From Antricoccus suffuscus (GTDB lineage Bacteria; Actinomycetota; Actinomycetes; Mycobacteriales; Antricoccaceae): 64,000 nt of DNA. The stretch is from the NCBI RefSeq assembly GCF_003003235.1, contig NZ_PVUE01000005.1, positions 62,001 through 126,000 of the forward strand, in the 5' to 3' direction. The number at the start of each line of letters is the position of its first letter. The stretch's first letter is position 1. Shown here one piece after another: positions 47,350-64,000 of this stretch. The position numbers and the translations under genes are program-made. Under the pieces are notes generated by a model that saw nothing but the letters and a program-made list of their open reading frames with translations, was not told where the DNA came from and did not search any database.

Positions 47350-47706
47350 AACTCGCCCACCACAGTCTTGGGACGCCCCTGAATTAGCGTCTCCCCCACA
47401 GCCGCAACTTCATCACAAGCGACTAACCCAAGCAACCGTCCCGCGACGAAGTTTCATTAGCACATGTAATAGGCAAAATTGCAAGCAGATTCCGGCGTGA
47501 ACCAAGTCCCGGCACGCAAGGGCGCCAGTCGCAGGTCGGCGCAGCCTAGGTCCGGACCCAATCACGTTGAAGACTTGTAACTCGGCACACGAATCTGCAT
47601 CCGCACCATGAGGATCGGAAAATATGCTCTGCGCACGAGGGCCCCAAGCGTCTGTATAGTCCCGGGAATACATCACTTCAGTTCTAGGGCGCGGGGAGAA
47701 ATTCTA
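47350..47706. other. Intergenic region between divergent surface genes
   Basis: No supported gene. It must hold promoters for the 1610-residue protein and for the methyltransferase gene. TATAGT at about 47656-47661 is a possible -10 element, without a clear -35. Confidence 0.3.
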
Positions 47707-48472: not shown

Positions 48473-49822
48473 CTACTGTGGCGCCGACCGCTCTAGAACG
48501 AAGCGGCGCAGTTCGTCAGCGTCATCGAGATCCACGAATTCCTGGCCGCGCTCCTCGTCAATCGACGTTCGAGCACGCAGAGCCTCCAACGTAGTTCCCG
48601 ATTCCGCGGCCAGCCCCGATTCGCGACCGACTAGCTCGTCGTATACGCCGACGTACTTCTCCGCTTGTGGTCGCCAATCAAGCTCCTTTACGACTCGGCC
48701 GCGCGCGCGAAGCGACATCGTGGCCCGCAACTCCGCATCATCTAGCAGCCGGGCTACCGAATCGGCAAACGCCTTCACGTCACCCGGCGTCACGTACAGC
48801 ACCGCTTCCGCACCAGAGACCCGAGTCTCGGCCAGGTCAAATGACACCGATGGCAGGGCATATGCCATGTACTCCATCGTCTTGTTCATCGTGGAAATAT
48901 CGTTGAGTGGCGTCTTCCGGTCAGGACACATGCCGATATCGGCCGCGCTGAGATAGTCAGCGATCATGCCCTTGTCTGCCCGACCGGTGAAGGTTACATA
49001 GTCATCAAGCCCGAGTTGGGTGGACTGACGACGAAGATCCTCGAAGCAGTCACCAAAACCGAGTAATGCCGCGTGAACGTCAGTGCGTCCACGCCAATTT
49101 ACCAATTCGTCCATCACCTCGAGCACCACGTCGACGCCGTCTTGCGGTCCCATGATGCCGAGGTATACCAGAAGGTACCGCCCGTTTCGGCGTATTGATG
49201 GCGGTGGATATATAGGGCGCATCAACTGCGTATCCGGACCGCTTCGTACAACGGTGACCTCATCCGCACGACGATGTCCCCGGGAGATTGCGATCTTCTT
49301 GTAGGACTCATTGGTAGATATCACGCGATGCGCAGCACGAAACGTCATACGCTCCAGCCACAGCAAGCCATTCAACTGAACGCGACCACCGAAGCTGGAG
49401 GGCTTCCCAAAACGTGACAAATAGAGTTCGGGATTGAGATCATGGTGGTCGAATATGAACTTGACCCCACGTATCCGCCACAGTCTGGCTAGGAGCCAGT
49501 AGGTGTCGGGCGGATTGCACGCTTGAATGATGTCAAATCCGCGGTCACGCCATACCCGGAGCGAGAGCAAAGCGGTGCGCAGCCATGAGTAGACGAACTC
49601 GACGATAAAACCTCCGACACCCTTAGCCTCAGGTGCCGGTCGATATTTGTAGATCGCGACACCATCGAGTGTCTGCCGTGAGGGATCGCCCGGACCCTTG
49701 GGACATATCACGCTCACCGCGTAACCCCGTGCGATGAGCGCCTGACACTCAAGCCAGACACGACGATCCAACGGGACCGGAAGATTCTGAACGATTATCA
49801 GAACTCGTCGTCCGATAGACAT
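48473..49822 (-). CDS. Glycosyltransferase family 4
   Basis: A 449-residue GT-B fold transferase. The N-terminal donor/acceptor region starts RVLIIVQNLPVPLDRRVWLECQAL, and the nucleotide-sugar site is seen as YLGIMGPQDGVDVVLEVMDELV and GRADKGMIADYLSAADIGMCPD with the E-x7-E-like NKTMEYMAY. It is converted to membrane-associated work on lipid-linked or surface glycans. GGAGGGG upstream sets ATG 49822. Divergent from the Wzz-like gene; donor sugar unknown. Confidence 0.9.
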   Translation of the reverse strand: MSIGRRVLIIVQNLPVPLDRRVWLECQALIARGYAVSVICPKGPGDPSRQTLDGVAIYKYRPAPEAKGVGGFIVEFVYSWLRTALLSLRVWRDRGFDIIQACNPPDTYWLLARLWRIRGVKFIFDHHDLNPELYLSRFGKPSSFGGRVQLNGLLWLERMTFRAAHRVISTNESYKKIAISRGHRRADEVTVVRSGPDTQLMRPIYPPPSIRRNGRYLLVYLGIMGPQDGVDVVLEVMDELVNWRGRTDVHAALLGFGDCFEDLRRQSTQLGLDDYVTFTGRADKGMIADYLSAADIGMCPDRKTPLNDISTMNKTMEYMAYALPSVSFDLAETRVSGAEAVLYVTPGDVKAFADSVARLLDDAELRATMSLRARGRVVKELDWRPQAEKYVGVYDELVGRESGLAAESGTTLEALRARTSIDEERGQEFVDLDDADELRRFVLERSAPQ

Positions 49823-49976
49823 AGTGGATTCCCCTCCGAAGAGTTGGTTGGGTTCGTGACCGAGTCGGCAACCACATTTAATAGTGCCAGACCAGTTCAC
49901 ACGGCATTTTTAGGGTAGGCCGAGTACTCTCGGGACTGTAGTTGCAAGCTGCTTCGTGGCGTTATGAAGGGACAGT

Positions 49977-50738
49977 ATGTATTTCGGGGATGTCCTGAAG
50001 GCACTCGGACGCAGGTGGTACGTCCTTGTAGCGGGTCTCGTGGTAATCGCCGTCGCGGCAGGTTTGGCAATAAAGTGGGTACCGACGCAGTACGAGGCGT
50101 CAGGGCAGATGCTGCTCTTGCTCCCAGCGGACGCGACCGGTATCACAACACCGACTAACCCGTACATTAACCTGCAGGCCGGACTCATCACCACTGCGTC
50201 CGTGGTCGCGGGAACGCTAAGCACCAAAGATAGCCAGCGCGAAATGAAAGCCAAGGGGTTCACGTCCGAATACGCTGTCGCGCTCGACCCCGGAGGCGGC
50301 CCGCTGCTGCTTATCACCGCCGACGACACGAACCCACAACGCGCAGTTGCCACCCGGGACGAAGTAATCAAGCGGCTCGACGGAGAACTTGCCCGCATCC
50401 AACAAGATGAGAATGTTCCAGTTACCCAGTTGATCCACTCGCGCACATTCAGCGTTACACAGTTTGCCGAGGCGCTACCAGGTAGCAAGATCCGCGCACT
50501 CGCAGTGATCGGTGCGGTAGGCGTGATCCTCACTCTGATCGTCGCGTTGATGATTGACCGGTATCGGCCGGCTCGCAAACGGCCGAGGCGCTCTCGCGCA
50601 CGCCGCAGTCGCGAGACCGGGCCGGACGACGAAACGCAAGCCGATCCACAATCCCCATCGGTCGACAATGACAGCGAACTGGCATCCAGCGCAACGTCGA
50701 CCGTTGAGCATGAGGTCGTCGGTGAGCCTCGCCGCTGA
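49977..50738 (+). CDS. Wzz/chain-length-determinant-like membrane protein
   Basis: A 253-residue polysaccharide co-polymerase-like protein: membrane segments at about 15-32 and 173-193 flanking an external helical domain, and a basic C-terminus followed by an acidic disordered tail. No Walker motifs, so no attached tyrosine kinase. The family sets polymer length in Wzy-dependent or ABC-type systems. AAGGGA precedes ATG 49977. It overlaps the following ligase-like gene by 29 bp. Confidence 0.8.
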   Translation: MYFGDVLKALGRRWYVLVAGLVVIAVAAGLAIKWVPTQYEASGQMLLLLPADATGITTPTNPYINLQAGLITTASVVAGTLSTKDSQREMKAKGFTSEYAVALDPGGGPLLLITADDTNPQRAVATRDEVIKRLDGELARIQQDENVPVTQLIHSRTFSVTQFAEALPGSKIRALAVIGAVGVILTLIVALMIDRYRPARKRPRRSRARRSRETGPDDETQADPQSPSVDNDSELASSATSTVEHEVVGEPRR

Positions 50739-52152
50739 AACACCGGTCCGACGCGAACGAACGCAGCGCATCCCGGCACTAGTCTTCGTTCTCGTCTACG
50801 TCGCGCTACTGCTCTGCATTCCTTCGCGGCTAATCGTCGGACCACTAGGCGCATCGGGGACGCCCGCAAATCTTTGGGGATTGGCGGCGCTGCTCTGGTG
50901 GGTCTGCGCCGCGGTCGGCGGATTCAACACAGGTCGCCACTCGCCAGTACGGATTGCAATAGCCGTTCTGACCCTTGCGGTGTTCGCAAGTTACGTGTCC
51001 GGAATGTCGAACGGCTGGTTCATTCCACCGACTATTCACGAAGCAACTAGCGACGTTATTAACCTGGTCCCGGCCACCATTGGGCAAATCAACGAGAAAA
51101 TGGTGAACGCTGCGGACCGCGGACTGCTCTCGTTCGGTGGGTGGCTCGGAATCGTGCTGGTCACTTCAAGCGGTCTGCGTTCCTGGCGGGACCTCGAAAC
51201 GGTCGCAAAGTGGCTCACCTGGCTGGGGACTTTCGTAGCGGCTCTGGGAATACTTCAGTTCTTCACCGCGATAGACATCGCCTCGTTCTTCAAGATTCCC
51301 GGGCTGGTCGCGAACTCCGATTTCGGCGAGGTCGCAACCCGTTCGGTGCTCAACCGCGTCTCAAGCACGGCGATACATCCCATCGAGTTCGGCGTCGTCA
51401 TGGCCTGCATCTTCGTTTTTGCGTTGCACCGGGCAATTCACAACCCGAGCGCAATTCCACCCTGGATACCCGTTGTTTGCATCGGGATCGCGATCCCGAT
51501 GTCCGTGTCACGATCTGCGATCCTCACGGCCGCGATCGCGTTGATCATCATGCTGATCAGTTGGCCTCCACGGTGGCGATGGCGCGCTCTCTTCATCGCG
51601 CCCTTCGCAGCCATCGCGCTCAGACTCATGATCCCGGGGCTCGTCGGCACCATCACGTCACTGTTCACGAATCTATCCAATGACCCGAGTATCAGCGGTC
51701 GCACCGACGACTACGGCCCCGTCTTCGATCTCTACACAAACCATCCGATACTCGGTCGCGGTCTGTTCACTTTCGCCGCGAATTATTACCGGATCCTCGA
51801 CAACCAATACTTTGGCATGCTGGTTGAAATCGGAGCGGTTGGCCTGTCCGCAGCCGTAGCCCTCTTCCTAATTGGCTACTTCTGCGCCCGCGGCGCGCGA
51901 CGACGCACAACCAATCCTCGGTCTCGACACCTCGCGCTCGCGCTGTCCGGCGCAATCGCCGGTGTTGTGATCAGTTACGTGACGTTCGATGCGTGGGCCT
52001 TTCCAATGGCCGCTGGACTCACTTTTCTCCTGATTGGGATGGCCGGCGCCGCGTGGCAGATTGCTCGCTACGAGTCACAGCAATCGGATCCTGCCGCGGC
52101 GGAGGCCGCGGCTCCTGCATCCGGCTATTCGCCAAGCCAGGAAGTTGCATGA
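50710..52152 (+). CDS. O-antigen ligase/Wzy-like polymerase, membrane protein
   Basis: A 480-residue multi-pass membrane protein with about 11 hydrophobic segments and a large periplasmic-type loop (about 325-375) that includes SISGRTDDYGPVFDLYTNHPILGRGLF, the G-x-G-x5-Y-N-like region of the O-antigen ligase/Wzy family. Whether it ligates or polymerises glycan repeats cannot be told. It starts at ATG 50710 inside the Wzz-like gene (GTG 50722 possible) and overlaps the next gene by four bases. Confidence 0.8.
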   Translation: MRSSVSLAAETPVRRERTQRIPALVFVLVYVALLLCIPSRLIVGPLGASGTPANLWGLAALLWWVCAAVGGFNTGRHSPVRIAIAVLTLAVFASYVSGMSNGWFIPPTIHEATSDVINLVPATIGQINEKMVNAADRGLLSFGGWLGIVLVTSSGLRSWRDLETVAKWLTWLGTFVAALGILQFFTAIDIASFFKIPGLVANSDFGEVATRSVLNRVSSTAIHPIEFGVVMACIFVFALHRAIHNPSAIPPWIPVVCIGIAIPMSVSRSAILTAAIALIIMLISWPPRWRWRALFIAPFAAIALRLMIPGLVGTITSLFTNLSNDPSISGRTDDYGPVFDLYTNHPILGRGLFTFAANYYRILDNQYFGMLVEIGAVGLSAAVALFLIGYFCARGARRRTTNPRSRHLALALSGAIAGVVISYVTFDAWAFPMAAGLTFLLIGMAGAAWQIARYESQQSDPAAAEAAAPASGYSPSQEVA

Positions 52153-53081
52153 AACAGACTGAAGAGATTGTGATCGTTGCCGTGGTCACATTTAACAGCG
52201 AGTCAGTACTTGAAGGCCTGATCTCATCGCTGAGCGCAGGATTCGCCGACGTCCTACACCATCTTGTCGTCGCGGATAATGCCTCGACCGATGGCAGCGT
52301 CGCAACCGTCAGGCGCCTCGCGCCCGAGGCAACGGTTGTCGAGGTCGGTCGAAATGCCGGCTATGCAGCAGGGATCAACGCAGCCGTGGCGGCTGCGCCC
52401 GCGCACACCGCGGTGCTCGCCCTGAATCCCGACGTCCGGCTCGGCGAAGGCAGTATCCCCGTACTGCTGCGCGCCCTTCGCGAACCAGGGACCGGAATCG
52501 CAGTTCCGCGGCTGATCGACGCACACGGACGGCTCATTGAGTCGATCCGACGTCGCCCAACCGTAACCAGAGCACTCGCTGATGCGCTGCTCGGCGCGCG
52601 CCGAGCTGGCCGCTACCCGCTGCTCGGCGAAGTAGCGAGTGATCCGGCCGTTTACGACGTCGAAGGTCCGATCGACTGGGCGGAGGGCTCCACGCAGCTC
52701 ATCAGCGCCGAATGCTGGAAAGCCTGTGGACCATGGGACGAGTCGTACTTCCTATATTCCGAGGAGACCGACTTCGACTTACGTGCCGGCGACGCTGGCT
52801 TCGCCACGAGATTTGTGCCATCCGCGCAAGCCACTCACCTTGAGGGCGGCTCTGGCGCGTCACCGGAATTGTGGTCGCTGCTGATGATGAACCGAGTGCG
52901 ACTGTTCCGTCGCCATCGCGGCACCCTGCCAACCATACCGTTCTGGGCGGCAACGCTTCTCCGAGAATCAAGTCGGGCGCTCCAGGGCAAAGCCACGAGC
53001 CGAGCCGCCGTGCGCGCGCTCGTCAATCCGTCACGCATGCGTGAGACGCCCGGACCCCATTCGATTCGGGCATCGCGTTAG
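52149..53081 (+). CDS. Glycosyltransferase family 2 (rhamnosyltransferase-like)
   Basis: A 310-residue GT2 enzyme. IVAVVTFNSESVLEGLISSL, LVVADNASTDGS and LALNPDVRLG give the Asp motifs of the GT-A fold; EGSTQLISAECWKACGPWDESYFLYSEETDFDLRAGDAG is the acceptor-side ED-x-D region, resembling WbbL-type rhamnosyltransferases. ATG 52149 overlaps the ligase-like gene by four bases, so all three plus-strand genes form one operon. Confidence 0.9.
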   Translation: MKQTEEIVIVAVVTFNSESVLEGLISSLSAGFADVLHHLVVADNASTDGSVATVRRLAPEATVVEVGRNAGYAAGINAAVAAAPAHTAVLALNPDVRLGEGSIPVLLRALREPGTGIAVPRLIDAHGRLIESIRRRPTVTRALADALLGARRAGRYPLLGEVASDPAVYDVEGPIDWAEGSTQLISAECWKACGPWDESYFLYSEETDFDLRAGDAGFATRFVPSAQATHLEGGSGASPELWSLLMMNRVRLFRRHRGTLPTIPFWAATLLRESSRALQGKATSRAAVRALVNPSRMRETPGPHSIRASR

Positions 53082-53105: not shown

Positions 53106-53783
53106 CTACCGCAACCGTTTGACAAGTCCGACGGCAGCGGAGCGGGCACGTTGCCGTGGTGTTGCCGGTCTGAGCGCGCTCGCGCGAAGCGAAGCGGGCG
53201 TGTCATCGCTGCGAACGCTGAACCGCGGTTGCATCCACTGGCCGGCCCGCGCAACCTTCCGGTCGCTGGTGTGTACGGTCTCGTAGCCGAGTCGACGCAG
53301 ATCACCCAATAACCGTCGGTCGTATCTGCCAAGTGGTAATGCCGCCGCTCTAACTGCTTCGCCACTTATCTCGGCTAAACGAGCGCGGGCCTCGACAAGC
53401 TCGCGGTCCCGCGTCGCAGGATCCATCCCTCGCCACGGTCGATGATCCATGCCGTGCGAGCCGATTGACATCCCATGTTTTCTTAGCTCAACGACACCGT
53501 CGGGGTCGAGACTGCCGGCCGTCTCCAGGCGCCCGGCCAATACGAAGAACGTTGCCGTGAGGTCCCGTTGACGCAGTGCCGGGAGCCCGAACTCGATGTC
53601 GGAGGTGTTTCCGTCGTCGAAGCTCAGACGCACGTTTGGCCAGCCGGCGATCTCATCGAGGATCCAGTGGAACTTCTCCTCGGTTATCCAGTACGCCGAC
53701 TCGCCCTCCTCAAGTTCCCGGCCGGGCGTCCCGATTCCGTGGAAACAGATGTTGATGATCTTGGTGTCAGGCACAACTGTCAC
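53106..53783 (-). CDS. Polysaccharide deacetylase (NodB-like) family protein
   Basis: A 225-residue carbohydrate esterase 4 protein. Motif 1 is LSFDDGNTSD with the catalytic-base and metal aspartates; motif 2 is GSHGMDHRPW (H-x3-H). Motif 3 reads ALPLGRYDRRL, where the usual RPPYG arginine is not at the same position. It would deacetylate an N-acetylated sugar in the glycan. No signal peptide is seen, so it may act on a cytoplasmic, lipid-linked intermediate. It overlaps the upstream GT2 gene by 17 bp. Confidence 0.87.
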   Translation of the reverse strand: MTVVPDTKIINICFHGIGTPGRELEEGESAYWITEEKFHWILDEIAGWPNVRLSFDDGNTSDIEFGLPALRQRDLTATFFVLAGRLETAGSLDPDGVVELRKHGMSIGSHGMDHRPWRGMDPATRDRELVEARARLAEISGEAVRAAALPLGRYDRRLLGDLRRLGYETVHTSDRKVARAGQWMQPRFSVRSDDTPASLRASALRPATPRQRARSAAVGLVKRLR

Positions 53784-54675
53784 CCCGGACGATGGGTGTC
53801 GCAGGACGCGTTGAGTTGTCTTGTCCCCAGGGCTCCGCGGCGCCGGCGTTCCGCCGTGCCAGAAATGCCGCCCAGACAGTGATCGCGACGTAGACCACGG
53901 CGGCTGGGGCGAGCCTTGGCTCTGGCACGATCACGTCGCGCAACCAGGAGAACCGGTCAGCGTTGCGTACCGGCACCGTAACCTGGCCTTCCCTTGCCGC
54001 AGCTCGCATTGCCGCGTTGCCGCGTCGTACCCTTACTAAGCGCCGCACTAAGTCGCGCGTGCGCAGTGGCGCGGCTACGACTGTTTCAATTTGATCGACT
54101 TCGGACTTCTCGCCTTGGTCGAACACGGAATCCAGGAATAAGTCATCGGCGACCATGTCCGGGAAGCGCTCGAACCGCGCCCGCCCGGCCCGCGACACCG
54201 CGATTGCGCCGCGGCCGAACAGCCCGTGCCTAAAGACTGGCAGCCTACTGTTTATTGCGAAATATGCACGGACCATTAGCGGACGCGCGCGTAGATCGAG
54301 TGTGCGGCGCGGGACGGCCGCGAGCGTTGGACAACCTGCCGGACGGGTCGCTTTGGGCGGGCAGAGCAGTGCATCTCGGAGCGCACGGGCGCCCGCTGTC
54401 GTGAGGACGATGTCGGCATCGAGGTAAATCCGCGGAAAAGCGTCGATAGCCGCATCTCCGGCATTGAGCGCCGCCGGTTTGCTTGGCTCCGCTAACTCAA
54501 TGACCCGGACCGTATTTCGGGCTGCCGCGATTGTGGCGGTCGCATCGTCGCAACCGTTGGCCACGACCACGATCTCGAACTCATCCGGCAATGAATCGGC
54601 CAGTAAGTTATCCAGACAGCGACCGATGACCGACGCCTCGTTGTGTGCTGCGATCACGACGCCCGTCATCGCCAC
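53767..54675 (-). CDS. Glycosyltransferase family 2 with C-terminal membrane segment
   Basis: A 302-residue GT2 protein: GVVIAAHNEASVIGRCLDNLL, IVVVANGCDDAT, and IYLDADIVLT as the D-x-D motif, then a MVADDLFLDSVF acidic region. One hydrophobic helix is near residue 260-276. The gene overlaps the deacetylase gene, suggesting that a newly added sugar is deacetylated. ATG 54675 has no clear ribosome-binding site. Confidence 0.85.
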   Translation of the reverse strand: MAMTGVVIAAHNEASVIGRCLDNLLADSLPDEFEIVVVANGCDDATATIAAARNTVRVIELAEPSKPAALNAGDAAIDAFPRIYLDADIVLTTAGARALRDALLCPPKATRPAGCPTLAAVPRRTLDLRARPLMVRAYFAINSRLPVFRHGLFGRGAIAVSRAGRARFERFPDMVADDLFLDSVFDQGEKSEVDQIETVVAAPLRTRDLVRRLVRVRRGNAAMRAAAREGQVTVPVRNADRFSWLRDVIVPEPRLAPAAVVYVAITVWAAFLARRNAGAAEPWGQDNSTRPATPIVRGDSCA

Positions 54676-54798: not shown

Positions 54799-55701
54799 AT
54801 GAGTTTGTGTGCGTTTTCGGGGCTAATCAATATGTCCACTAAAGTCTCGGTCGAGTTGAGCGCTATCACGGTCGCCGACTTGGTGCCAATCGGGCACTTC
54901 CTGCACGATAACTTGAACCACCACGTCGCCCCCGAGGCATGGGTGCGCGCCGTCAATCCCGCGTGGATGTCCGACGCCCCTAACCACGGATTCATGCTGC
55001 AGACACGCGACGGCAAAATCGTCGGCGTATATCTCGCGTTCTACTCGGCGCGGCAGATCGCCGGCGCGACCGAACGGTTCTGCAATCTCGCCGCGTGGTG
55101 CGTGCTCGAAGCGCACCGGGGACACGGCCTGCGGCTGGTACGAGCGCTGCTGGCACAGGTCGGTTACCACTTCACCGACCTCTCACCTAGTGGAAATGTG
55201 GTCCCGCTAAACAAACGGCTCAAGTTCCAAGAACTCGACACAACGACCGCGCTGGTTCCCAACCTGCCGCGGGTCGGCTCGTCTCGGACGCGCATTACGA
55301 CCAATCCCACGAAAATCGCTCGCGTGCTGACCGGGAACGACCTCACGATTTACCGCGACCACGCGCACACACCGGCGGCGAACCATCTTGTGGTGCAGCG
55401 TGGAAGCGAATCGTGCTACGTGATCTTCCGACGGGACCGGAGAAAGAACCTCCCGCTGTTTGCCTCGATCCTCTACGTCGGCAACCCGAACCTGTTTCGC
55501 ACTGTTGCGAGGAATGTCTATGGGCACCTACTCGTGCGGCACGGAATACCCGTCACGCTTGCCGAGCTTCGCATCGTCGGAGACCAGCCACTCGGTTCGC
55601 GGCTGTTGCGGTCGGCACGTCCAAAGATGTTTCGCAGTAGCCACCTCCAGCCAGATCAGATCGATTACCTCTACAGCGAACTGACCTGCGTGGCCTGGTA
55701 A
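54799..55701 (+). CDS. GNAT-like acyltransferase, first gene of the exosortase-A-like module
   Basis: A 300-residue protein, or 289 from ATG 54832. Residues about 12-150 resemble the GNAT fold (LVPIGHFLHDNL; IVGVYLAFYS; AAWCVLEAHRGHGLRLVRALL, with the R-G-H-G acyl-CoA loop). The C-terminal half is not recognised. GNAT-like acyltransferases are a standard part of exosortase-A-associated gene sets in Gram-negative bacteria, and this one precedes the other members of that set by 27 bp. A role in acylating a glycan or amino compound is inference. Confidence 0.7.
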   Translation: MSLCAFSGLINMSTKVSVELSAITVADLVPIGHFLHDNLNHHVAPEAWVRAVNPAWMSDAPNHGFMLQTRDGKIVGVYLAFYSARQIAGATERFCNLAAWCVLEAHRGHGLRLVRALLAQVGYHFTDLSPSGNVVPLNKRLKFQELDTTTALVPNLPRVGSSRTRITTNPTKIARVLTGNDLTIYRDHAHTPAANHLVVQRGSESCYVIFRRDRRKNLPLFASILYVGNPNLFRTVARNVYGHLLVRHGIPVTLAELRIVGDQPLGSRLLRSARPKMFRSSHLQPDQIDYLYSELTCVAW

Positions 55702-55728: not shown

Positions 55729-57309
55729 ATGCAGACCAACCTTCATCACCTGATAGAACATCGCGCGACGTCAAACGGCGACGCGCCTGCGCTCACGTTC
55801 AAGGACACGACGTTCACCTATGCGGAACTTTGGGCGCAGACTCAACAAGTGGCGGCCGGTCTCGCCCGGCTTGGCCTGCGATCTGGCGACCGGGTCGGAG
55901 TGTTTCTCGACAAACGCATCGAGACGGTGACCTCGATCTTCGGATCGTCCGCGGCCAGTGCCGTATTCGTGCCGGTCAATCCACTACTCAAGCCCGCGCA
56001 GGTCGTGCACATCCTCAACGACTGCGATGTCCGAGTGCTGGTCACCACGCCCGAGCGTCTCGCGCTGCTCGCTGATGACCTGAAGGAATGCGATGCGCTG
56101 AGCAGCGTCATATTGGTCGCGACGGGCATCACGCCCAAAGATGCACCCGACCTCGGGGATGTCGATGTGCACCAATGGAGTGTCGTGTTCGACAACGACG
56201 GATCGTCGTCGCAACTTCGCTCGGCGATCGATCTCGATATCGCCGCCATCCTTTACACGTCCGGGAGCACAGGCCGGCCCAAGGGCGTCGTTCTGAGCCA
56301 TCGCAATCTGATCGTCGGCGCCGAGAGTGTGAGTCAGTACCTGGGCAACACCGCTGACGACGTCATCCTGGCCGCGCTGCCCTTGAGCTTTGATGCCGGT
56401 TTCAGCCAGTTGACGACGGCATTCAGTGCCGGCGCCCACGTGATACTGATGAACTACCTGCTGCCACGTGATGTCGTGCGACTATGCGAAAAGCATTCGG
56501 TTACCGGACTGACCTGTGTCCCGCCGCTGTGGATTCAGATCGCCGCGCAGGAGTGGCCCCCGGCCGCAACCGAGAATCTGCGCTACTTCGCAAACACCGG
56601 TGGACGTATGCCCCGAACGACCCTCGACAAGTTACGCGACCAGTTTCCTGCGGCGACGCCGTACCTCATGTATGGACTCACCGAAGCATTTAGGTCGACC
56701 TACCTGGACCCCGCGGAGATCGATCGCAGACCTGATTCGATCGGCAAAGCGATCCCGAACGCCGAGGTCATGGTCGTCCGACCGGATGGCTCGCCATGCG
56801 ACTTCGGTGAGGAGGGTGAACTGGTGCACCGCGGCGCGCTGGTCGCGCTGGGCTATTGGAATGATCCGGAGCGTACGGCTGAACGGTTCCGACCCGTGCC
56901 CGGCCGGAACCAAGACTGGCGTTCGCCCGAGGTCGCGGTCTTCTCCGGTGATGCTGTTGTGACGGACAACGATGGCTTTCTGTACTTCGTTGGGCGCAAG
57001 GACGAAATGATTAAGACCTCGGGGTACCGGGTCAGCCCGACCGAGGTCGAGGAGGCGGCTTACAGCACTGGCTTGGTACGTGACGTGGTAGCGCTTGGAG
57101 TCGATGACGCCACACTGGGTCAGAAGATACTTCTCGTGGTCAGTCCGTCCGGTTCCGATCCACTTGACGAAGCCGCGCTGATTGCCGCGATGCGGCATCG
57201 ACTACCACTCTTCATGGTGCCCTCTAGCGTCGTCACCCGCAGCGCGATCCCACGCACTCCTAACGGTAAGTTCGACCGCAAGCTACTACGCGAAGAGGTC
57301 GGTGCATGA
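55729..57309 (+). CDS. AMP-forming acyl-CoA ligase, exosortase-A-associated type
   Basis: A 526-residue adenylate-forming ligase with P-loop YTSGSTGRPKGV, YGLTEAFRST in place of the TE motif, GDAVVTDNDG, GRKDEMIKTSGYRVSPTEVE hinge, and catalytic lysine in RTPNGKFDR. The combination with a PLP decarboxylase (four-base overlap), acyl carrier protein and GNAT-like gene is the arrangement annotated as exosortase-A system-associated in Gram-negative genomes. It could load an amino or hydroxy acid onto the carrier protein encoded downstream rather than onto CoA. Confidence 0.85.
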   Translation: MQTNLHHLIEHRATSNGDAPALTFKDTTFTYAELWAQTQQVAAGLARLGLRSGDRVGVFLDKRIETVTSIFGSSAASAVFVPVNPLLKPAQVVHILNDCDVRVLVTTPERLALLADDLKECDALSSVILVATGITPKDAPDLGDVDVHQWSVVFDNDGSSSQLRSAIDLDIAAILYTSGSTGRPKGVVLSHRNLIVGAESVSQYLGNTADDVILAALPLSFDAGFSQLTTAFSAGAHVILMNYLLPRDVVRLCEKHSVTGLTCVPPLWIQIAAQEWPPAATENLRYFANTGGRMPRTTLDKLRDQFPAATPYLMYGLTEAFRSTYLDPAEIDRRPDSIGKAIPNAEVMVVRPDGSPCDFGEEGELVHRGALVALGYWNDPERTAERFRPVPGRNQDWRSPEVAVFSGDAVVTDNDGFLYFVGRKDEMIKTSGYRVSPTEVEEAAYSTGLVRDVVALGVDDATLGQKILLVVSPSGSDPLDEAALIAAMRHRLPLFMVPSSVVTRSAIPRTPNGKFDRKLLREEVGA

Positions 57310-58532
57310 CGCCCAAACCCGTTATCGCCGCCTTTGGCTCTCAGAACGGTCAACTGACCGTGGGCGGTATCCCAGTCGAGCGACTCGCTGAGCGCGTCGG
57401 CAGCACGCCATTCTTCGCTTACGACCGGGGTCTCCTCACGACGCGAGTAGAGCTTCTGCGCGCGACGCTGCCCGCCGGTATCGAGCTGAGTTACGCGATG
57501 AAGGCGAATCCGATGCCGGCGGTCGTTCAGCACATCTCCGGACTCGTTGATTCGATCGATGTCGCGTCCGCATTGGAGATGCAGACGGCGTTGGATACCC
57601 CGCTCACCGCTTCACACATCAGTTTCGCCGGTCCCGGGAAGACCGATCAGGAACTGAGTCAGGCTGTAGCCGCGGGTGTCACGATCGAATTAGAGTCCGC
57701 GTCGGAGGCTGCCCGGGTGGTGAGCGCTGGCGACCGGCTTGGACTGCGACCGAGGGTCGCCATCCGAGTCAACCCGGACTTCCAGGTCAAAGGGTCCGGG
57801 ATGCGTATGGGTGGTGGCCCGCAGCAGTTTGGGGTGGATGTCGAGCAGGTGCCCGCCTTATTGACGGACTTGGCGTCTGCCGACGTCGAGCTTCTTGGGT
57901 TCCATGTATTCGCCGGGTCGCAGAATCTGCACGCCGACATTTTGGCCGAAGCGCAGCGGAAGACGGTCGAATTGGTCTTAGCGCTCGCGGACAAGTCACT
58001 ATCGCCAATCCGCTATCTAAATCTCGGCGGCGGTTTCGGCATTCCGTACTTCGATAAGGATCAGCCGCTCGATCTCGAAGCGATCGGCGATAATCTATCT
58101 GCGCTGCTCACGGATGAGATCCGCCCGAACCTGCCCGACGCCCGTGTCGTAATGGAGCTCGGGCGATACATTGTTGGCGAGTGTGGTGTCTACATCACTC
58201 GGATCGTCGATCGCAAGGTGTCGCGTGGACGGAACTATGTCGTCGTCGACGGCGGCATGCACCATCAGCTGGCCGCGTCGGGCAACTTTGGCCAGGTGAT
58301 CCGCCGCAATTACCCACTCGCCGTCGCCAACAAGATCGATGTACCGGTTGATGAGTCGGTCACGGTCGTCGGATGCCTCTGCACCCCTCTCGACCTTCTC
58401 GGCGACAACGTCGACCTGCCACGGTCCGAAGTCGGTGACCTCGTCGCGCTGTTTCAGGCCGGCGCATACGGGCTCACGGCAAGTCCGACCGCGTTTCTGG
58501 GCCACCCAGCGCCCGCCGAAATACTCGTTTGA
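57306..58532 (+). CDS. Fold-type III PLP-dependent decarboxylase (LysA/ornithine-decarboxylase-like)
   Basis: A 408-residue enzyme with the PLP lysine Lys66 in SYAMKANPMP, glycine-rich phosphate loop NLGGGFGIPY, GRYIVGECGVY, and the active-site cysteine-containing GCLCTPLDLLGD, as in diaminopimelate decarboxylase. Sequence features such as FYD-to-LFQAGAYG spacing agree with the decarboxylase partner of exosortase-A-associated ligases. It may decarboxylate an amino acid loaded by the ligase. The gene overlaps the ligase gene by four bases. Confidence 0.85.
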   Translation: MTPKPVIAAFGSQNGQLTVGGIPVERLAERVGSTPFFAYDRGLLTTRVELLRATLPAGIELSYAMKANPMPAVVQHISGLVDSIDVASALEMQTALDTPLTASHISFAGPGKTDQELSQAVAAGVTIELESASEAARVVSAGDRLGLRPRVAIRVNPDFQVKGSGMRMGGGPQQFGVDVEQVPALLTDLASADVELLGFHVFAGSQNLHADILAEAQRKTVELVLALADKSLSPIRYLNLGGGFGIPYFDKDQPLDLEAIGDNLSALLTDEIRPNLPDARVVMELGRYIVGECGVYITRIVDRKVSRGRNYVVVDGGMHHQLAASGNFGQVIRRNYPLAVANKIDVPVDESVTVVGCLCTPLDLLGDNVDLPRSEVGDLVALFQAGAYGLTASPTAFLGHPAPAEILV

Positions 58533-58561: not shown

Positions 58562-58825
58562 ATGGAAAGCACCAGTACATCCACATTAGACGGCGTCAAG
58601 GCAGTAATCGTCCAAGTTCTCGGCATCGAAGACCGCGCGGACACGCTTGAGGCCTCAACGCCCCTCTTCGGCAGCATGCCCGAACTCGACTCGCTCGCTG
58701 TCGTCGAACTGGCCGCCGCGCTCGAGTCACACTTCGACTTTGAAATCGACGACGCCGACTTCACCGGCGAGGTCTTCGAGACCGTCGGAACTCTCGCGCA
58801 ATTCGTCGACGACAGCCATAAGTAA
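58562..58825 (+). CDS. Acyl carrier protein
   Basis: An 87-residue acidic four-helix carrier protein. The phosphopantetheine attachment site is Ser44 in MPELDSLAVVEL. A GGGG box precedes ATG 58562. It follows the decarboxylase by 29 bp and precedes a secreted beta-helix gene by 10 bp, indicating one operon. The carrier would hold the acyl or aminoacyl group made by the ligase for transfer, plausibly by the GNAT-like enzyme. Confidence 0.93.
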   Translation: MESTSTSTLDGVKAVIVQVLGIEDRADTLEASTPLFGSMPELDSLAVVELAAALESHFDFEIDDADFTGEVFETVGTLAQFVDDSHK

Positions 58826-58835
58826 GTTCAGCTAG

Positions 58836-59756
58836 ATGCGCACCCGCCGCACGTTAGCGGTTGCTTCCACGGCCGCCGCGGTGATCGTTATCGCCGCAGT
58901 CGCCATCGTGGTAATCGCGCGATCAGGTGACACCACGTCGCATTCGACCAGCGCCGAGACCGACAACTCCGGTGTGCACGAGGGCTTTCCTGGACCGTCG
59001 AACACCGGGGTGCCTTCCGGGACAAAACTCGCGGATTACAGCGGACCGTGCACGATCACCAAACCAGATACGGTGATTGACGCAAAGCAGGTTACATGCG
59101 ATGACCTGCTGATTGCGACTTCGGGCGTGAAAGTCACCCGGAGCAAGACCAATCGGATCGATGCCGACGGCGATAATATTTCGATCACCATCGAAGACTC
59201 CGAGATAGATGGCGGCACCTGGAACGGCGCCGCAATCGGGTTCAATAATCTCACTCTGAAACGAGTCAATGTGCACGGCGCGCGCGTTTCAGTCCTGTGC
59301 GGTTCCAACTGCCTTGTGCAAGATTCCTGGTTACACAAACAGTACATGCCGTCTGACGTTCCCTGGCACGTCAATGGTTACGTAAGTAATGGCGGATCTA
59401 ACGTCCTTGTCAAGCACAACACAATCGCATGCGACGTGCAGGACAACAGCGCGGGTGGCGGATGTACCGGACCTGCCGCTTCGTTCGGCGACTTCGCGCC
59501 GTTAAAAGACATTACCTATGACGGGAACCTGCTCGTAGCCACCCCTGGGGGCTACTGCCTTTCCGCTGGATACAACCCAGCCAAATCGTTCGGAAGTAAT
59601 CCGACCAGAATAGTTGTCAGAAACAACATTTTCGCGCGCGGGTCCACCGGAAAATGCGGATCGTACGGTCCCGCTACCTCATTTCTGGCGAACGGCACGG
59701 GAAACGTGTGGTCGAATAACAAATGGGACGATGGGAGTCCGCTACAGGCCCCGTAA
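58836..59756 (+). CDS. Secreted right-handed beta-helix-like protein
   Basis: A 306-residue protein with an uncleaved-type signal anchor (hydrophobic residues about 11-29), a Ser/Thr-rich linker, and a repetitive domain from about 50 that is rich in N-x-T/I-V coils (VLCGSNCLVQDSW, HNTIACDVQDNS, GNLLVATPGG), as in pectate-lyase-like beta-helices. Several cysteines are spaced for disulfides. Most of the domain is paralogous to the C-terminal part of the protein at 60362. It is probably a surface glycan-binding or glycan-modifying protein. It has no clear ribosome-binding site, so translation may be coupled to the ACP gene. Confidence 0.8.
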   Translation: MRTRRTLAVASTAAAVIVIAAVAIVVIARSGDTTSHSTSAETDNSGVHEGFPGPSNTGVPSGTKLADYSGPCTITKPDTVIDAKQVTCDDLLIATSGVKVTRSKTNRIDADGDNISITIEDSEIDGGTWNGAAIGFNNLTLKRVNVHGARVSVLCGSNCLVQDSWLHKQYMPSDVPWHVNGYVSNGGSNVLVKHNTIACDVQDNSAGGGCTGPAASFGDFAPLKDITYDGNLLVATPGGYCLSAGYNPAKSFGSNPTRIVVRNNIFARGSTGKCGSYGPATSFLANGTGNVWSNNKWDDGSPLQAP

Positions 59757-60361
59757 GGCGAATTAACCCGCATGTCTGTGTGCCTCAGCGCGGACTGGCG
59801 ACGGGAAGCGGCAAGACGTAACCCGAGCGACGGTAGCGCGACGCCTCGACCGCTTCCATAAGGCGACGGGATCGGATTGCTCAAAGACTAGAGCGGATCT
59901 ATTTCAGTGACGATTAGCACATTCGCTATATTTGGCCGGCCGCAAGCACGATTTTGGGGCCTTCCGGGCGCGCGCACAGGCGACGCAAGGCAAAGCAAGA
60001 ATGCGATCAGTTCAATTTGGAACCACGAGAAAGTCGAGGCCATCGCACCTGTGGCGCGAAACGGGCGGCCTGCAAAAACCACGGGTCCCCGATCTCTCCG
60101 CACTTTGGTCCACACCTACATAGTCGGGCGTCCACAATCAAGGCCTCTCGGCCAAATCTGCGGTGTTTGACGATTCACGTTGTGCTCGCAGCGGAAGTCC
60201 TCATAGACTTCCTGAGTCGATGTCCACCCGGTGATTCGTAGATCCCGGTCGCCCCCAAATCCCGGACGTCGTGGCGGTCTTTCCTTGCGCACTATCGGGC
60301 ACACGCGCGCCGACCGTCGCCATCGGTGTGGATGGCACCTACCAAATAGGAGTAACTCATT
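59757..60361. other. 600-bp intergenic region between paralogues
   Basis: No supported gene. It contains a separated inverted repeat TTTGGCCG (about 59931) / CGGCCAAA (about 60148) and may carry its own promoter for the following gene, as the gap is far larger than others in the operon. Base composition is visibly less GC-rich than in the first 40 kb. Confidence 0.35.
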
Positions 60362-61837
60362 ATGCGTGTTAATTCACGTCGTTCCCACACGCCCACCAGG
60401 CGACGAATGGCGCTCGTTCGCCTACTTACCGGCGCGATGGGGTTGGCACTCGTCGGCAGCGCTGCAATGGCCACATCGCACCAAAGTAGCGATGCGTACG
60501 CAGAGTCGCCAACCAATCAAACCATCTGGCAAGGCAACCCGACGCCGAAGAACCCGGCAGACAGCGATACGTCCTCGGTCGAACTAGGAACTGTTTTTGC
60601 GAGCAGCGAGAACGGGACAGTATCCGGAATCCAGTTCTACAAATCTGCCCAGAACACGGGCACTCATACCGGGAAACTCTGGAATTCAGATGGTAAGCAG
60701 ATCGCATCAGTCACCTTCAACGGCGAGACGGCAAGTGGCTGGCAAACAGCGTCGCTGTCCTCGCCAGTCGCCGTAGCGAAGGGTCAGAAGTACACGGTCT
60801 CGTACAACGCGCCGAACGGCCAATACGCCGATGACACCGGCGTCCTCTCACCCGGTAAGACCATTACCTCTGGCAGCCTGACTGCATACAGCGGTGTCTA
60901 CACGTACGGCGCCGGGATGCCGAACCAAACCTGGATGGATTCCAGCTACTACGTTGACGTTGTTTTCAAGGCCGGTGAAGCTGCTACCCCGCCTGCGACT
61001 ACCACTCCCGTGGATCCAGTCGTGACCGACCCGGCACCGGGAACCGATCCGCCGCCACCGGCGACTACCAGTTTCCCCGGCCCTTCGAATACGGGTGTTC
61101 CTGCAGGCGTCGCGCTGACCCCTTACAGCGGACCATGCACGATCACGACGCCAAATACGGTTATTGATGCGAAGGCAATCAGTTGTGATCTAGTGATCGC
61201 CGCTCCTAATGTCCAGATCTCACGCAGCACCACAAAACACATTGACTCGGATAGCGACTCGGCCTCCGTATCGATTACGGACTCCGAAGTCGACGGCGGT
61301 ACCTCAGAGACCCCAGCTGTCGGGTACAGCAACATCACGATGAAGCGCGTAAATGTGCACGGCGCACGCGTCTCGGTATTGTGCGGTTCAAACTGCTCGA
61401 TATCTGATTCATGGTTGCACAGCCAGTACATGGCGCCCGGTTCGGACTGGCATGTCAATGGCTACGTGAGCAACGGCGGGTCGAACGTTCTCGTTCAGCA
61501 CAACACCATCGCTTGTGACGTCCAAGACAATAGCAACGGGGGCGGATGCACGGGTCCGGCTGCTTCGTTCGGAGACTTCGCACCGCTCAGCAACATTACG
61601 TACGACAATAATCTGTTTGTTGCCTCGCCCGGAGGCTATTGTCTTGCCGCTGGTCTCAACCCCAGCAAACCCTACGGCAGCAACCCGACCGGAATCGTAG
61701 TGACCAATAACGTGTTCCAACGCGGAAATAACGGAAAGTGCGGCGCATTTGGAGCCGCGACATCGTTCCCCGCAGGCGGTAGTGGGAACGTTTGGTCCAA
61801 CAACAGTTGGGATGATGGCAAGATCCTCAACCCTTAA
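60362..61837 (+). CDS. Secreted DUF4082 plus beta-helix-like protein
   Basis: A 491-residue exported protein: signal peptide (hydrophobic about 17-37, cleavage near AYA), one DUF4082 domain at about 52-205 (TIWQGNPTPKN, GIQFYKSAQNTGTH, YYVDVVFK), a Pro/Thr-rich linker, and from about 240 to the end a beta-helix domain closely related to that of the preceding protein (VNVHGARVSVLCGSNC, GGGCTGPAASFGDFAPL shared). GGAG upstream of ATG 60362 supports the start. The DUF4082 domain links it to the 1610-residue protein of the same locus. It ends at a strong terminator. Confidence 0.88.
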   Translation: MRVNSRRSHTPTRRRMALVRLLTGAMGLALVGSAAMATSHQSSDAYAESPTNQTIWQGNPTPKNPADSDTSSVELGTVFASSENGTVSGIQFYKSAQNTGTHTGKLWNSDGKQIASVTFNGETASGWQTASLSSPVAVAKGQKYTVSYNAPNGQYADDTGVLSPGKTITSGSLTAYSGVYTYGAGMPNQTWMDSSYYVDVVFKAGEAATPPATTTPVDPVVTDPAPGTDPPPPATTSFPGPSNTGVPAGVALTPYSGPCTITTPNTVIDAKAISCDLVIAAPNVQISRSTTKHIDSDSDSASVSITDSEVDGGTSETPAVGYSNITMKRVNVHGARVSVLCGSNCSISDSWLHSQYMAPGSDWHVNGYVSNGGSNVLVQHNTIACDVQDNSNGGGCTGPAASFGDFAPLSNITYDNNLFVASPGGYCLAAGLNPSKPYGSNPTGIVVTNNVFQRGNNGKCGAFGAATSFPAGGSGNVWSNNSWDDGKILNP

Positions 61838-62023: not shown

Positions 62024-63289
62024 TCACCTGTTATTGCCCCCACTATCGGCAATACTTTGTAATTCCGGACTGGGCGGTCCATAAACTTCATCCTCGACAA
62101 TTCTGACCACATCGGCCTGCGCCGGTCGCCACATGTCGCCTCTGACACTGGATGCCGCCTGCAACGCACGCGCCTCAATTGCCTCGGCTTCGACCAGTGC
62201 GCAAAGTGCGTCTGCGATGGCTCCCGGCGTCGGCTTCGCCCACGACGCGAACTCACTTGGTAGATCCGCGCGCGCGTAAGGCGAGTCGTTTACGACTGGA
62301 ATCGTGCCGGCTGCGAGCATTTCTTCGGCTACAAGCGAGATATTCGTAAACGACATCGCTATTCCGGCAATTGTTTTGTTGTAGAGTTCATTCAATTGGG
62401 CAGGGGTGAGTCGCCCATGATTCGTCACAGGAAACGGCAAATCGACCGTTTTCTGCCCGTATACGTGAATCTCCTGCTCCGGATGACGCTGATGAAATTT
62501 CTCCAATGCCAACGTGCCGAGTAAATAGCCGCGGCGCGCATTTACTGGACGGGTATAGAAGACGACACCTGAACGCGATTGCGGTCCCAGATGCCGATAC
62601 ACGTTTGTATCACATCCAAATTCGGTAACATCCGCATCGACTCCCACTTCCGAGCGGAGGAGGTCTCCTACCATTCGACCCAACGCTATGCATCGAAATC
62701 CGAATCTGTACGTATCTTCTGCCAAGGCATATTCGGAACCTCGAGCGTAAAAATACGGTTCATAGTCTTGGACGAAGTAGAGCCGACGCATCGCCTGGGT
62801 TCCTGCGCTAGCCAGGACATGCGCTGATGGCCAACCCGTCGCAATGCATGCATCAACGCCTCGGATTCCTCCAGCGACGTCTACGACCTCCGATCGGACG
62901 TCGGGCCACCCTTCACGGACGATACGTTCGTGGTGACGCACGTCGCCGCCAAATCGGTCGTGCAGAAAGAGTACGGTCGCGTGGCCGGCTTCCTCAAGCG
63001 CCTGGATCATGCGAAACATGGTCGTGTGACCGCCCGATCCGAGGCTTGGCGGCGTACATATCCACCCGATCCGCAGGCGGCTTCCACGGGCAGGACGGAC
63101 ATCAGGAGCAGCTAGCCGCAACCGTGTTGAATCTGCTATGTCCCTGACGTCAAGCGGAACCTCAAGTTCAGATGCCCCTAACGTCTGATAGGCGAAGCGG
63201 GCGGCCCTCTGTGCAGCCGCCCGCGCACCTTGCTGTCGAAGCGTGCGGCTTCCTACTGCGAGCATATGAAAGGCACGCGAGGTCGACAT
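62024..63289 (-). CDS. Glycosyltransferase (WsaF-like rhamnosyltransferase)
   Basis: A 421-residue GT-B type transferase. An N-terminal helical region is followed by RIGWICTPPSLGSGGHTTMFRMIQALEEAG, as in WsaF-like rhamnan transferases, and a C-terminal site with HGRLTPAQLNELYNKTIAGIAMSFTNISLVAEEMLAAG, where the acidic pair Glu-Glu sits in the usual E-x7-E place. It is encoded eight bases downstream of an aminotransferase on the same strand, suggesting amino-sugar or rhamnose-containing glycan assembly. Confidence 0.85.
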   Translation of the reverse strand: MSTSRAFHMLAVGSRTLRQQGARAAAQRAARFAYQTLGASELEVPLDVRDIADSTRLRLAAPDVRPARGSRLRIGWICTPPSLGSGGHTTMFRMIQALEEAGHATVLFLHDRFGGDVRHHERIVREGWPDVRSEVVDVAGGIRGVDACIATGWPSAHVLASAGTQAMRRLYFVQDYEPYFYARGSEYALAEDTYRFGFRCIALGRMVGDLLRSEVGVDADVTEFGCDTNVYRHLGPQSRSGVVFYTRPVNARRGYLLGTLALEKFHQRHPEQEIHVYGQKTVDLPFPVTNHGRLTPAQLNELYNKTIAGIAMSFTNISLVAEEMLAAGTIPVVNDSPYARADLPSEFASWAKPTPGAIADALCALVEAEAIEARALQAASSVRGDMWRPAQADVVRIVEDEVYGPPSPELQSIADSGGNNR

Positions 63290-63297
63290 CGTTGTTC

Positions 63298-64000
63298 CTA
63301 ACGGCCACGTTGATTAGAGGCTGCCGGCTCGAGCGCACTGACCTTCACGACCGCGACTCGTACAGCGTCGGCGACACGCAGTTGTTGCTCCTCCGTAATA
63401 CCAGGAAATAGCGGTAGTGAGACGATCCGTCCGGATGCGCGTTCTGAGACCGGAAAATCGCCAGTGCTGTAGCCGAGATGAGCGAACGCCGGAACCGAGT
63501 GAACAGGGGCCGGATAGTGAATGCCCGCGCCGATTCCGGCTCCGTTCAACTCGGCGAGGACGCGGTCCCGATCGTCGACCGCGACGACATACAAATGCCA
63601 GACATGCTCATTACCCGGTGCCGTGACCGGAAGGTCAACTCCCTGTACGTCGGCCAAAAGCTCGGTATAGAAGGCAGCTGCGGCGCGGCGTTCGTCGTTC
63701 CAGTCATCGAGCACCGCCAACTTTGCGGAAAGCACAACCGCTTGAAGGCTGTCGAGCCGCGAGTTGAACCCGAAATGCTCATGTTCATACTTCCGGATTC
63801 CACCGTGGTTACGGACTGCCTGGAGTCGCTCTGCAACCGCCTGATCGGAGGTGAGCACCGCGCCCGCATCGCCATATGCCCCAAGATTCTTTCCGGGATA
63901 AAAGCTCGTGGCCGCAGCCTGCCCAAATGATCCTGAACGTTGCCCGTTCTGCCTCGCGCCTTGCGACTGGGCCGCATCTTCGATCAAAATTACGTCAGGC
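63298..64000 (-). CDS. DegT/DnrJ/EryC1 family sugar aminotransferase (5' end cut by window)
   Basis: The C-terminal 234 codons of a PLP-dependent sugar aminotransferase; the frame continues past the right edge. The PLP lysine lies in SFYPGKNLGAYGDAGA, and IRKYEHEHFGFNSRLDSLQAVVL plus LPLFPGITEEQQ are typical. The enzyme makes an amino sugar nucleotide used by nearby glycosyltransferases. It overlaps no other gene and is eight bases before the WsaF-like gene. Confidence 0.93.
   Translation of the reverse strand, partial: PDVILIEDAAQSQGARQNGQRSGSFGQAAATSFYPGKNLGAYGDAGAVLTSDQAVAERLQAVRNHGGIRKYEHEHFGFNSRLDSLQAVVLSAKLAVLDDWNDERRAAAAFYTELLADVQGVDLPVTAPGNEHVWHLYVVAVDDRDRVLAELNGAGIGAGIHYPAPVHSVPAFAHLGYSTGDFPVSERASGRIVSLPLFPGITEEQQLRVADAVRVAVVKVSALEPAASNQRGR

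Follow-up and report, generated by a model that had tools for sequence, protein, structure and literature searches.

Paired beta-helix proteins behind a ligase–decarboxylase–carrier protein module as probable extracytoplasmic partners of a surface polysaccharide in Antricoccus suffuscus

What would two extracytoplasmic beta-helix proteins have to do with a gene module that seems to work on a carrier-bound small molecule inside the cell? The question is raised by a 64,000-nucleotide stretch of the Antricoccus suffuscus genome (contig NZ_PVUE01000005.1, positions 62,001 to 126,000; hereafter, the window), where two paralogous genes, BH1 (58836..59756, + strand) and BH2 (60362..61837, +), lie directly behind genes for a ligase, a decarboxylase, and an acyl/peptidyl carrier protein (ACP). 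An earlier note on this DNA suggested that their products may recognise the finished glycan as receptors or act on it as enzymes, a proposal that we keep in conditional form. Based on the evidence presented here, we infer that BH1 and BH2 probably serve the surface polysaccharide from this locus as its dedicated partners outside the cytoplasm.

The module comprises four genes on the + strand: (i) a GNAT-like acyltransferase candidate (54799..55701), which is conserved in the four-gene loci and whose match to PF00583 is weak and below the cut-off (E 0.011); (ii) an AMP-forming ligase (55729..57309; TIGR03098, 760.9 bits against a cut-off of 592.35) and (iii) a PLP-dependent decarboxylase (57306..58532; TIGR03099, 582.5 bits against 478.45), both of exosortase A system-associated families that are curated only as hypothetical equivalogs; and (iv) the ACP (58562..58825; PF00550, E 7.3e-10). 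This module is embedded in a Wzy-type polysaccharide locus, with a Wzy_C/O-antigen ligase family membrane protein (50554..52152, +; PF04932, E 1.4e-13), a GT2 glycosyltransferase (51993..53081, +; PF00535, E 4.6e-12), and, both recurring in the cluster, a polysaccharide deacetylase (53106..53783, −; PF01522, E 8.9e-22) and a second GT2 glycosyltransferase (53767..54675, −; PF00535, E 2e-9). Farther out on that side lie a GT4 glycosyltransferase (48473..49900, −; PF13692, E 2.3e-20), distantly XrtA-system-like with 69 bits to TIGR04063, below its cut-off, and a 1,610-residue secreted protein with a DMFA2_C domain, three Big_5 domains, and four DUF4082 domains (42517..47349, −). Beyond BH2 follow a WsaF-like glycosyltransferase (62024..63289, −; PF22772, E 7.8e-10) and the C-terminal part of a DegT-type sugar aminotransferase (63298..63987, −; PF01041, E 2e-59), a gene that probably extends past the window's end because the match begins inside the profile (positions 142 to 360). 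Exosortase (PF09721) had no match at E 1 in the organism's own genome, which is 97.77% complete. The ACP stop codon ends at 58825 and the BH1 start codon is at 58836, so the 10-bp, operon-like spacing described earlier is correct; a scan of the intergenic stretches for promoters and terminators yielded nothing above shuffled sequences.

The paralogy claimed for 58836 to 61837 likewise stands, with coordinates right and both quoted blocks present: the beta-helix domains of BH1 (58986 to 59753) and BH2 (61073..61834, +) are identical at 179 of 253 residues (71%; E 9e-130), far beyond chance. In BH1, the domain follows an N-terminal hydrophobic stretch without an obvious cleavage site, whereas BH2 opens with a signal peptide-like segment that ends in AYA and continues with a DUF4082 domain (60542..60955, +; residues 61 to 198; PF13313, E 4.8e-46, 156.7 bits against a cut-off of 28.4) and a Pro/Thr-rich linker. 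Both N termini were read from sequence only, and on this reading BH1 is more likely membrane tethered than released, so that the earlier description of the pair as secreted suits BH2 better than BH1. DUF4082 and the linker are indeed present in BH2, but that they were "gained" does not follow: the direction of change is unpolarised, with the DUF4082-helix architecture also found in L008, L060, and L056 and the anchor-helix architecture in L057 to L059.

Structure prediction and comparison, which the earlier note had proposed as a check, bore out the expected fold. The AlphaFold2 model of the beta-helix domain (mean pLDDT 73.9, pTM 0.80) consists of short stacked strands, and VIA-align places it at Z 15 to 17 to many solved right-handed beta-helices; as modelled, the domain is a right-handed, pectate-lyase-like beta-helix. 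The Z values are tied across many unrelated functions and single out no specific family, and we therefore left the neighbours unranked, the absence of a family from the neighbour list proving nothing. Foldseek gave a best E value of only 0.014, and neither protein matched Pfam Beta_helix (PF13229) at E 0.1, a model that matches 14 of 33 relatives at E 0.01. The DUF4082 domain of BH2 is modelled at pLDDT 90.5, and among solved structures it comes nearest in fold to a lectin-like domain, that of Cwp84 (Z 13.5).

Do these proteins act on the polymer or bind it? An H-x-D-x-x-Q motif is kept across the wide family and in a subgroup that we call type B. BH1 and BH2 both fall into type A, which has lost the motif's D and Q and carries conserved cysteines instead. 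The histidine (H128 in BH1 domain numbering) is invariant (33/33), whereas D130 is found in 22 of 23 wider relatives against none of the 10 close ones, window proteins included, and the glutamine in 21 of 23 against 0 of 10; these counts are unselected, and the alignment (A4) omits L070 and L040, in which part of the motif is missing, and the weak L155 member. In BH1, the H128-V129-N130 codons (59367..59375, +) occupy the position of H-x-D in relatives. By sequence, the window proteins are a diverged branch of the helix family that also includes the motif-intact branch. The type B relatives, which retain the motif and in three genomes lie in one locus with type A, are the likelier enzymes; M673_RS17865 of Aureimonas is one of them, and the conserved D, H, D, and Q of this type fall at positions 101, 128, 130, and 133 when numbered by the BH1 domain. 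As a separate observation, 2 of 27 motif-intact members matched a tail-spike PHROG.

The alternative that survives best is that BH1 and BH2 are themselves enzymes that cleave or epimerise polysaccharide (a lyase, a hydrolase, or a C5-epimerase) and so trim the polymer, release it, or remodel it, the type A active site being changed. Among the nearest solved folds are AlgE/AlgG epimerases, PL6, GH87, GH136, and RbmB (Z 15 to 17); RbmB, a lyase that acts on the matrix polysaccharide of Vibrio and for which a parallel beta-helix is predicted (available text of PMC11637428), offers a precedent; and H117, H128, D169, K200, and R218 are kept in 10 of 10 close type A relatives. Yet the motif of the wide family is gone in type A, those Z values tie over unrelated functions, and neither window protein is matched by a Pfam or NCBIfam model for a lyase or glycosidase, so that we regard this alternative as unlikely. 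Neither protein bore a pectate-lyase catalytic signature, and pectate-lyase catalysis specifically was rejected, given also the loss of the family motif. A PDB profile search with the motif-intact set returned only BcAlyPL6 (E 0.0098), with a best stretch of 9.6 bits that leaves the motif itself unmatched, and therefore we name no enzyme class. The absence of the motif's D and Q from both window proteins leads us to lean modestly toward polymer binding or retention over catalysis for type A BH1 and BH2.

That the helix proteins belong with the module is suggested by their distribution. A helix-family member accompanies the module in 15 of 15 four-gene loci examined (12 from Actinomycetota and 3 from Alphaproteobacteria, which carry the same module and helix set), compared to none of the 9 module-type loci that lie in other settings and none of the 20 stretches drawn at random. 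Two of the members are weak, that of G815 (43 bits, partial) and that of G271 (76 bits, 12 kb off). The locus-by-locus reading passed over the single decarboxylase record from Azoarcus, NZ_CP021802 of S. meliloti, and the other records from S. meliloti and Rhizobium. On pSymB of the S. meliloti strains Rm41 and SM11, the decarboxylase and the helix both have matches. In an order-level sample of 397 genomes, the decarboxylase exceeded its cut-off in 12 and a helix match of >100 bits occurred in 6, all within the 12 and each time on the same contig at ≤10 kb (Fisher 1.8e-10, for genomes that are related to one another); in a genus-level sample of 101 genomes, the module was present in 9 and the helix in 4, all within the 9 (Fisher 3.1e-5). 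At the phylum level, a helix-only search found no member in any of the 22 genomes with sub-cut-off TIGR03099 matches. Spacing varies: four genomes, which represent two families, have ACP-to-helix gaps of 10, 14, 14, and 14 bp, and a 24-bp gap separates decarboxylase and helix genes in Aureimonas, whereas a distance of 2 to 17 kb puts the helix gene outside the operon in G001, G107, Cryobacterium, Rhizobium, S. meliloti, and G271. The recurrence of this pairing in distant bacteria makes it probable that BH1 and BH2 bind the finished surface polymer or process it.

The association is not an exclusive one, however. The earlier note had named a family occurring mostly without the module as evidence against it, and this is what we find for the wide family, with the module missing in 23 of the 29 order-sample genomes that have a helix-domain match. 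Polysaccharide genes lie near 20 of these 29 helix loci, compared to 1 of 20 controls, so that the common partner is an exopolysaccharide locus, of which the module is one variant. The helix family is associated with many different loci, as would also be expected if BH1 and BH2 were general surface adhesins or matrix scaffolds that do not act on that polymer and whose genes merely travel in polysaccharide islands; the best PDB match of the family profile is the Streptococcus pneumoniae adhesin PfbA (3zpp, E 6.4e-5), also a fold match (Z 16.3), and the likeness of DUF4082 to the Cwp84 domain points the same way. Against this, close type A members occur only in module genomes, L007 excepted, and operon-like gaps recur, and we consider such a role improbable. 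When the nine loci are taken together, helix and decarboxylase distances correlate (r 0.81, p 0.004), a value driven by one genus; with one g17 genome kept (six loci), the correlation is gone (r −0.17, p 0.70), so helix and decarboxylase are not inherited in lockstep, and we rejected lockstep coevolution. The window decarboxylase is 69% identical to that of Rhizobium and 65% to that of G001, a member of its own family, which points to transfer. Both results would suit hitch-hiking, in which the helix gene is linked only through movement of the whole variable polysaccharide island, but the contrast between 15/15 four-gene loci and 0/9 other module-type loci and the 10- to 24-bp spacing recurring in unrelated genomes make this the least probable of the three alternatives. 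As for a phage origin, there was no match among 50,697 phage records.

Taken as dedicated partners of the polymer, BH1 and BH2 would act at the end of the following pathway. Inside the cell, the ligase would load a small amino acid onto the ACP, the decarboxylase would trim it there, as BtrK does with BtrI-bound glutamate, and the GNAT-like enzyme would move the trimmed group to an amino sugar that the deacetylase has freed; the Wzy-type machinery would then polymerise and export the decorated chain, which, outside the cell, membrane-tethered BH1 and released BH2, with its lectin-like DUF4082, may hold or process. A broader and, in our estimation, doubtful extension is that Actinomycetota and Rhizobiales have in common a mobile, exosortase-free polysaccharide system whose polymer is decorated with a decarboxylated amino acid made on the carrier, and whose own beta-helix proteins read the decoration outside—type B as a motif-intact enzyme and type A as a motif-lost, disulphide-rich reader. 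In the window, a second reader with a fused lectin-like domain would then take the place of the enzyme.

Among openly licensed PMC papers, we found no account of the module-helix pairing, and the available part of Haft 2006 (PMC1569441) does not contain the words ligase, decarboxylase, or acyl carrier. A link to the S. meliloti PPP polysaccharide, placed at smb21252-smb21271 in the accessible text of PMC10128002 and PMC10315480, was dropped: the 795- to 880-kb stretch of strain 1021 pSymB, picked from the coordinates of SMb21240 and SMb21245 given in part of PMC12542648, so that the PPP position is approximate, holds neither module nor helix genes. PfbA resembles the window proteins as a surface beta-helix and has no close sequence relation to them. 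It is not known to be tied to any polysaccharide locus. The ligase part of the butirosin BtrJ/BtrI/BtrK chemistry is BtrJ. By analogy, the window module resembles this chemistry in combining a ligase, a small carrier, and an alanine-racemase-fold PLP decarboxylase—BtrK decarboxylates BtrI-bound glutamate in the butirosin pathway, according to the available text of PMC7857480—but lies in a polysaccharide locus. RbmB (Z 15.3), too, is a beta-helix protein that has a matrix polysaccharide as its partner (PMC11637428, as available); the likeness shown is one of fold, we found no sequence relation, and the window proteins differ in being tethered (BH1) or carrying DUF4082 (BH2). The exosortase A (XrtA/PEP-CTERM) exopolysaccharide loci of Gram-negative bacteria, in a Sphingomonas example, have the TIGR03098 ligase, TIGR03099 decarboxylase, ACP, polysaccharide deacetylase, and XrtA-like glycosyltransferase in common with the window. 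Unlike them, the source genome has no exosortase and so falls outside exosortase A protein sorting, its decarboxylase and that of Sphingomonas share only 50% identity, and the 31-kb Sphingomonas stretch has no helix-family member. An exosortase-A-associated pair thus occurs here without exosortase, in a defined four-gene unit, and the extracellular protein family that accompanies this unit in two phyla provides a handle on the module's product.

Comparison of the beta-helix proteins BH1 (58836-59756) and BH2 (60362-61837) bears out the earlier note's description of 58836-61837 as a pair of paralogs, one of which carries a DUF4082 domain: they are 71% identical over 253 residues, and DUF4082 occupies residues 61 to 198 of BH2. 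BH1 starts, as had been claimed, 10 bp behind the stop of the ACP gene. Upstream of the pair, on the same strand, lie genes for a GNAT-like protein, a ligase (above the TIGR03098 cut-off), a decarboxylase (above the TIGR03099 cut-off), and the ACP. This module is flanked by a polysaccharide deacetylase, GT2 and GT4 glycosyltransferases, a Wzy_C protein, a WsaF-like glycosyltransferase, and a DegT aminotransferase, and no exosortase was found in the organism's own genome (97.77% complete). The window also encodes a 1610-aa TAT-signal protein (42517-47349, minus strand) that combines DMFA2_C with three Big_5 and four DUF4082 domains and whose relatives recur in several of the polysaccharide loci compared below, and a 284-aa ORF without a Pfam match (47608-48462, plus strand) that recurs at ~50% identity in L057, L058, and L157 and is matched in L127 too.

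No Pfam or NCBIfam model of a beta-helix fold matched the helix domains of BH1 and BH2; Pfam Beta_helix was matched by 14 of 33 relatives at E 0.01. An AlphaFold2 model of the helix domain, built from four sequences (pLDDT 73.9, pTM 0.80, weak loops), consists of short, stacked parallel strands, and VIA-align scored it at Z 15 to 17 alike against solved structures of alginate epimerases, PL6, GH families, tailspikes, PfbA, NosD, and RbmB; the best Foldseek E was 0.014. Based on the stacked strands and these Z values, the structure prediction and fold comparison proposed in the earlier note identify the fold as a right-handed beta-helix. Since the Z values are alike across many functions, the modeled fold alone does not single out a function.

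To relate this helix family to the module, we read the decarboxylase neighborhood in every genome of our order, phylum, genus g17, and genus g5 samples whose decarboxylase exceeded the cut-off (18 in total). The four-gene form (GNAT relative, ligase, decarboxylase, and ACP) is present in 11 of them (G000, G001, G107, G204, G211, G271, G314, G334, G783, G792, and G815), with ten GNAT relatives 47 to 64% identical to the window protein, and in each of the 11, tblastn or a profile built from the 33-row alignment identifies a member of the helix family, the weakest being those of G271 (75.6 bits, at a distance of 12 kb) and G815 (a partial match of 42.9 bits). A twelfth four-gene locus, from Cryobacterium lactosi (L008), was retrieved via the helix and hence is no independent test; three plasmid loci, in Rhizobium sp. 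T1473, Sinorhizobium meliloti ml46 (pSymB), and Aureimonas AU20 (where the ACP gene lies apart from the other module genes), combine the four-gene form with a helix as well. The form is absent from the other seven genomes (G057, G090, G281, G376, G535, G810, and G834; in G535, a GNAT relative is present at 41% identity, with no ACP match) and from Burkholderia and Sphingomonas plasmid loci, and none of these nine loci held a helix member at E 1 (48 to 60 kb searched for the seven genomes, 25 to 31 kb for the two plasmid loci). A helix member thus accompanies 15 of 15 four-gene loci versus 0 of 9 other module-type loci (Fisher 7.6e-7); the 20 control stretches, drawn from the same sample's genomes, held none. 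TIGR03099 genes over the cut-off also occur in a nonpolysaccharide context (L064-L067, L126, L156, and L191), so the family name does not by itself settle the role; 22 genomes of family f32 have a TIGR03099 relative scoring 407 to 424 bits, under the cut-off and with no helix match, possibly a further module type.

Because the genomes are related, P values overstate the evidence from the samples, where helix matches over 100 bits fall in six of 397 order genomes, all within the 12 with a decarboxylase over the cut-off (Fisher 1.8e-10) and each with such a match at most 10 kb from it on the same contig, and where, in g17 (101 genomes), all four helix genomes lie inside the nine decarboxylase genomes (Fisher 3.1e-5). 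In g5, one of 17 genomes has the module and also the two strongest helix matches, with weaker matches in five others; the phylum sample (396 genomes) gave weak helix matches in four genomes besides our own and a decarboxylase over the cut-off in two. The co-occurrence that the earlier note proposed to check holds for presence but not for exclusivity: at E 0.001, 23 of the 29 helix genomes in the order sample lack a decarboxylase over the cut-off. Among 29 module-free helix stretches, 20 match the window glycosyltransferases, deacetylase, or Wzy protein, versus 1 of 20 controls (Fisher 6e-6), showing that the helix family is a companion of polysaccharide loci generally; three of the nine misses began as very weak helix matches, and several of the stretches come from short contigs. 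Among plasmid records, 35 match BH1 and 34 match the decarboxylase; 29 appear in both lists, 26 of them S. meliloti strains.

The histidine of an H-x-D-x-x-Q motif is invariant (33/33), and the wider group keeps D in 22 and Q in 21 of 23 rows. The ten closest relatives, including BH1 and BH2, have neither D nor Q and share cysteines at six positions (10/10) and two more (8/10). These ten (type A) form a starred clade (95/93), which has no members outside module loci except L007, on a MAG contig from Hamadaea with no module across the 19 kb covered, and a second copy in G107. With D and Q lost and the cysteines present, type A catalysis may have been changed or lost. A second, diverged set from g17 module loci and Aureimonas (type B) keeps H-x-D-G-x-Q, and G204, G314, and G783 carry one helix of each type. 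Type A comprises three architectures: a hydrophobic N-terminal anchor plus helix (BH1, L057-L059); signal peptide, DUF4082, linker, and helix (BH2, L008, L056, and L060); and another N-terminal part (Rhizobium). The DUF4082 model (pLDDT 90.5) is nearest to the Cwp84 lectin-like domain among solved structures (Z 13.5, rmsd 3.1 over 140 residues), with PHR domains at Z 12. Rhizobium sp. T1473 has a second helix gene broken by a frame change (L169:34987-35421 and L169:35055-35390); over the first 55 residues matched, it shares 65% identity with BH1, above the whole-domain identity of any intact nonwindow relative.

The ACP-to-helix gap, 10 bp in the window, is 14 bp in G204, G314, and G211, the type B gene of Aureimonas lies 24 bp behind the decarboxylase gene, and the helix gene is convergent with the ACP gene in G334, G792, and G815. 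Elsewhere the distance from the ACP gene is ~2 kb (Cryobacterium), ~5 kb (G107), ~7 kb (Rhizobium), ~8 kb (G001), or ~17 kb (S. meliloti). The window decarboxylase is closer to that of Rhizobium (69%) than to that of G001 from its own family (65%), which suggests that the cluster was transferred. The helix and decarboxylase trees both unite G001 with Cryobacterium but differ in where they place Rhizobium, and helix and decarboxylase distances show no correlation after one genus is cut to a single genome. In S. meliloti ml46, the module and two helix genes lie behind wzz and a tyrosine kinase in an accessory polysaccharide locus (pSymB 1104463-1160000; L166 and L170), whose glf-GT2 stretch occurs in 21 Sinorhizobium records, strain 1021 not included.

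We infer the substrate, the product, and all extracellular steps. A precedent for ACP-bound decarboxylation is BtrK, which decarboxylates glutamate bound to BtrI (PMC7857480); together with the GNAT-like gene and the deacetylase, it suggests that an amino acid-derived acyl group would be placed on an amino sugar. RbmB, a matrix-polysaccharide lyase with a predicted beta-helix (PMC11637428), offers a precedent for cleavage. For BH1 and BH2, we rank polymer binding or retention above cleavage.
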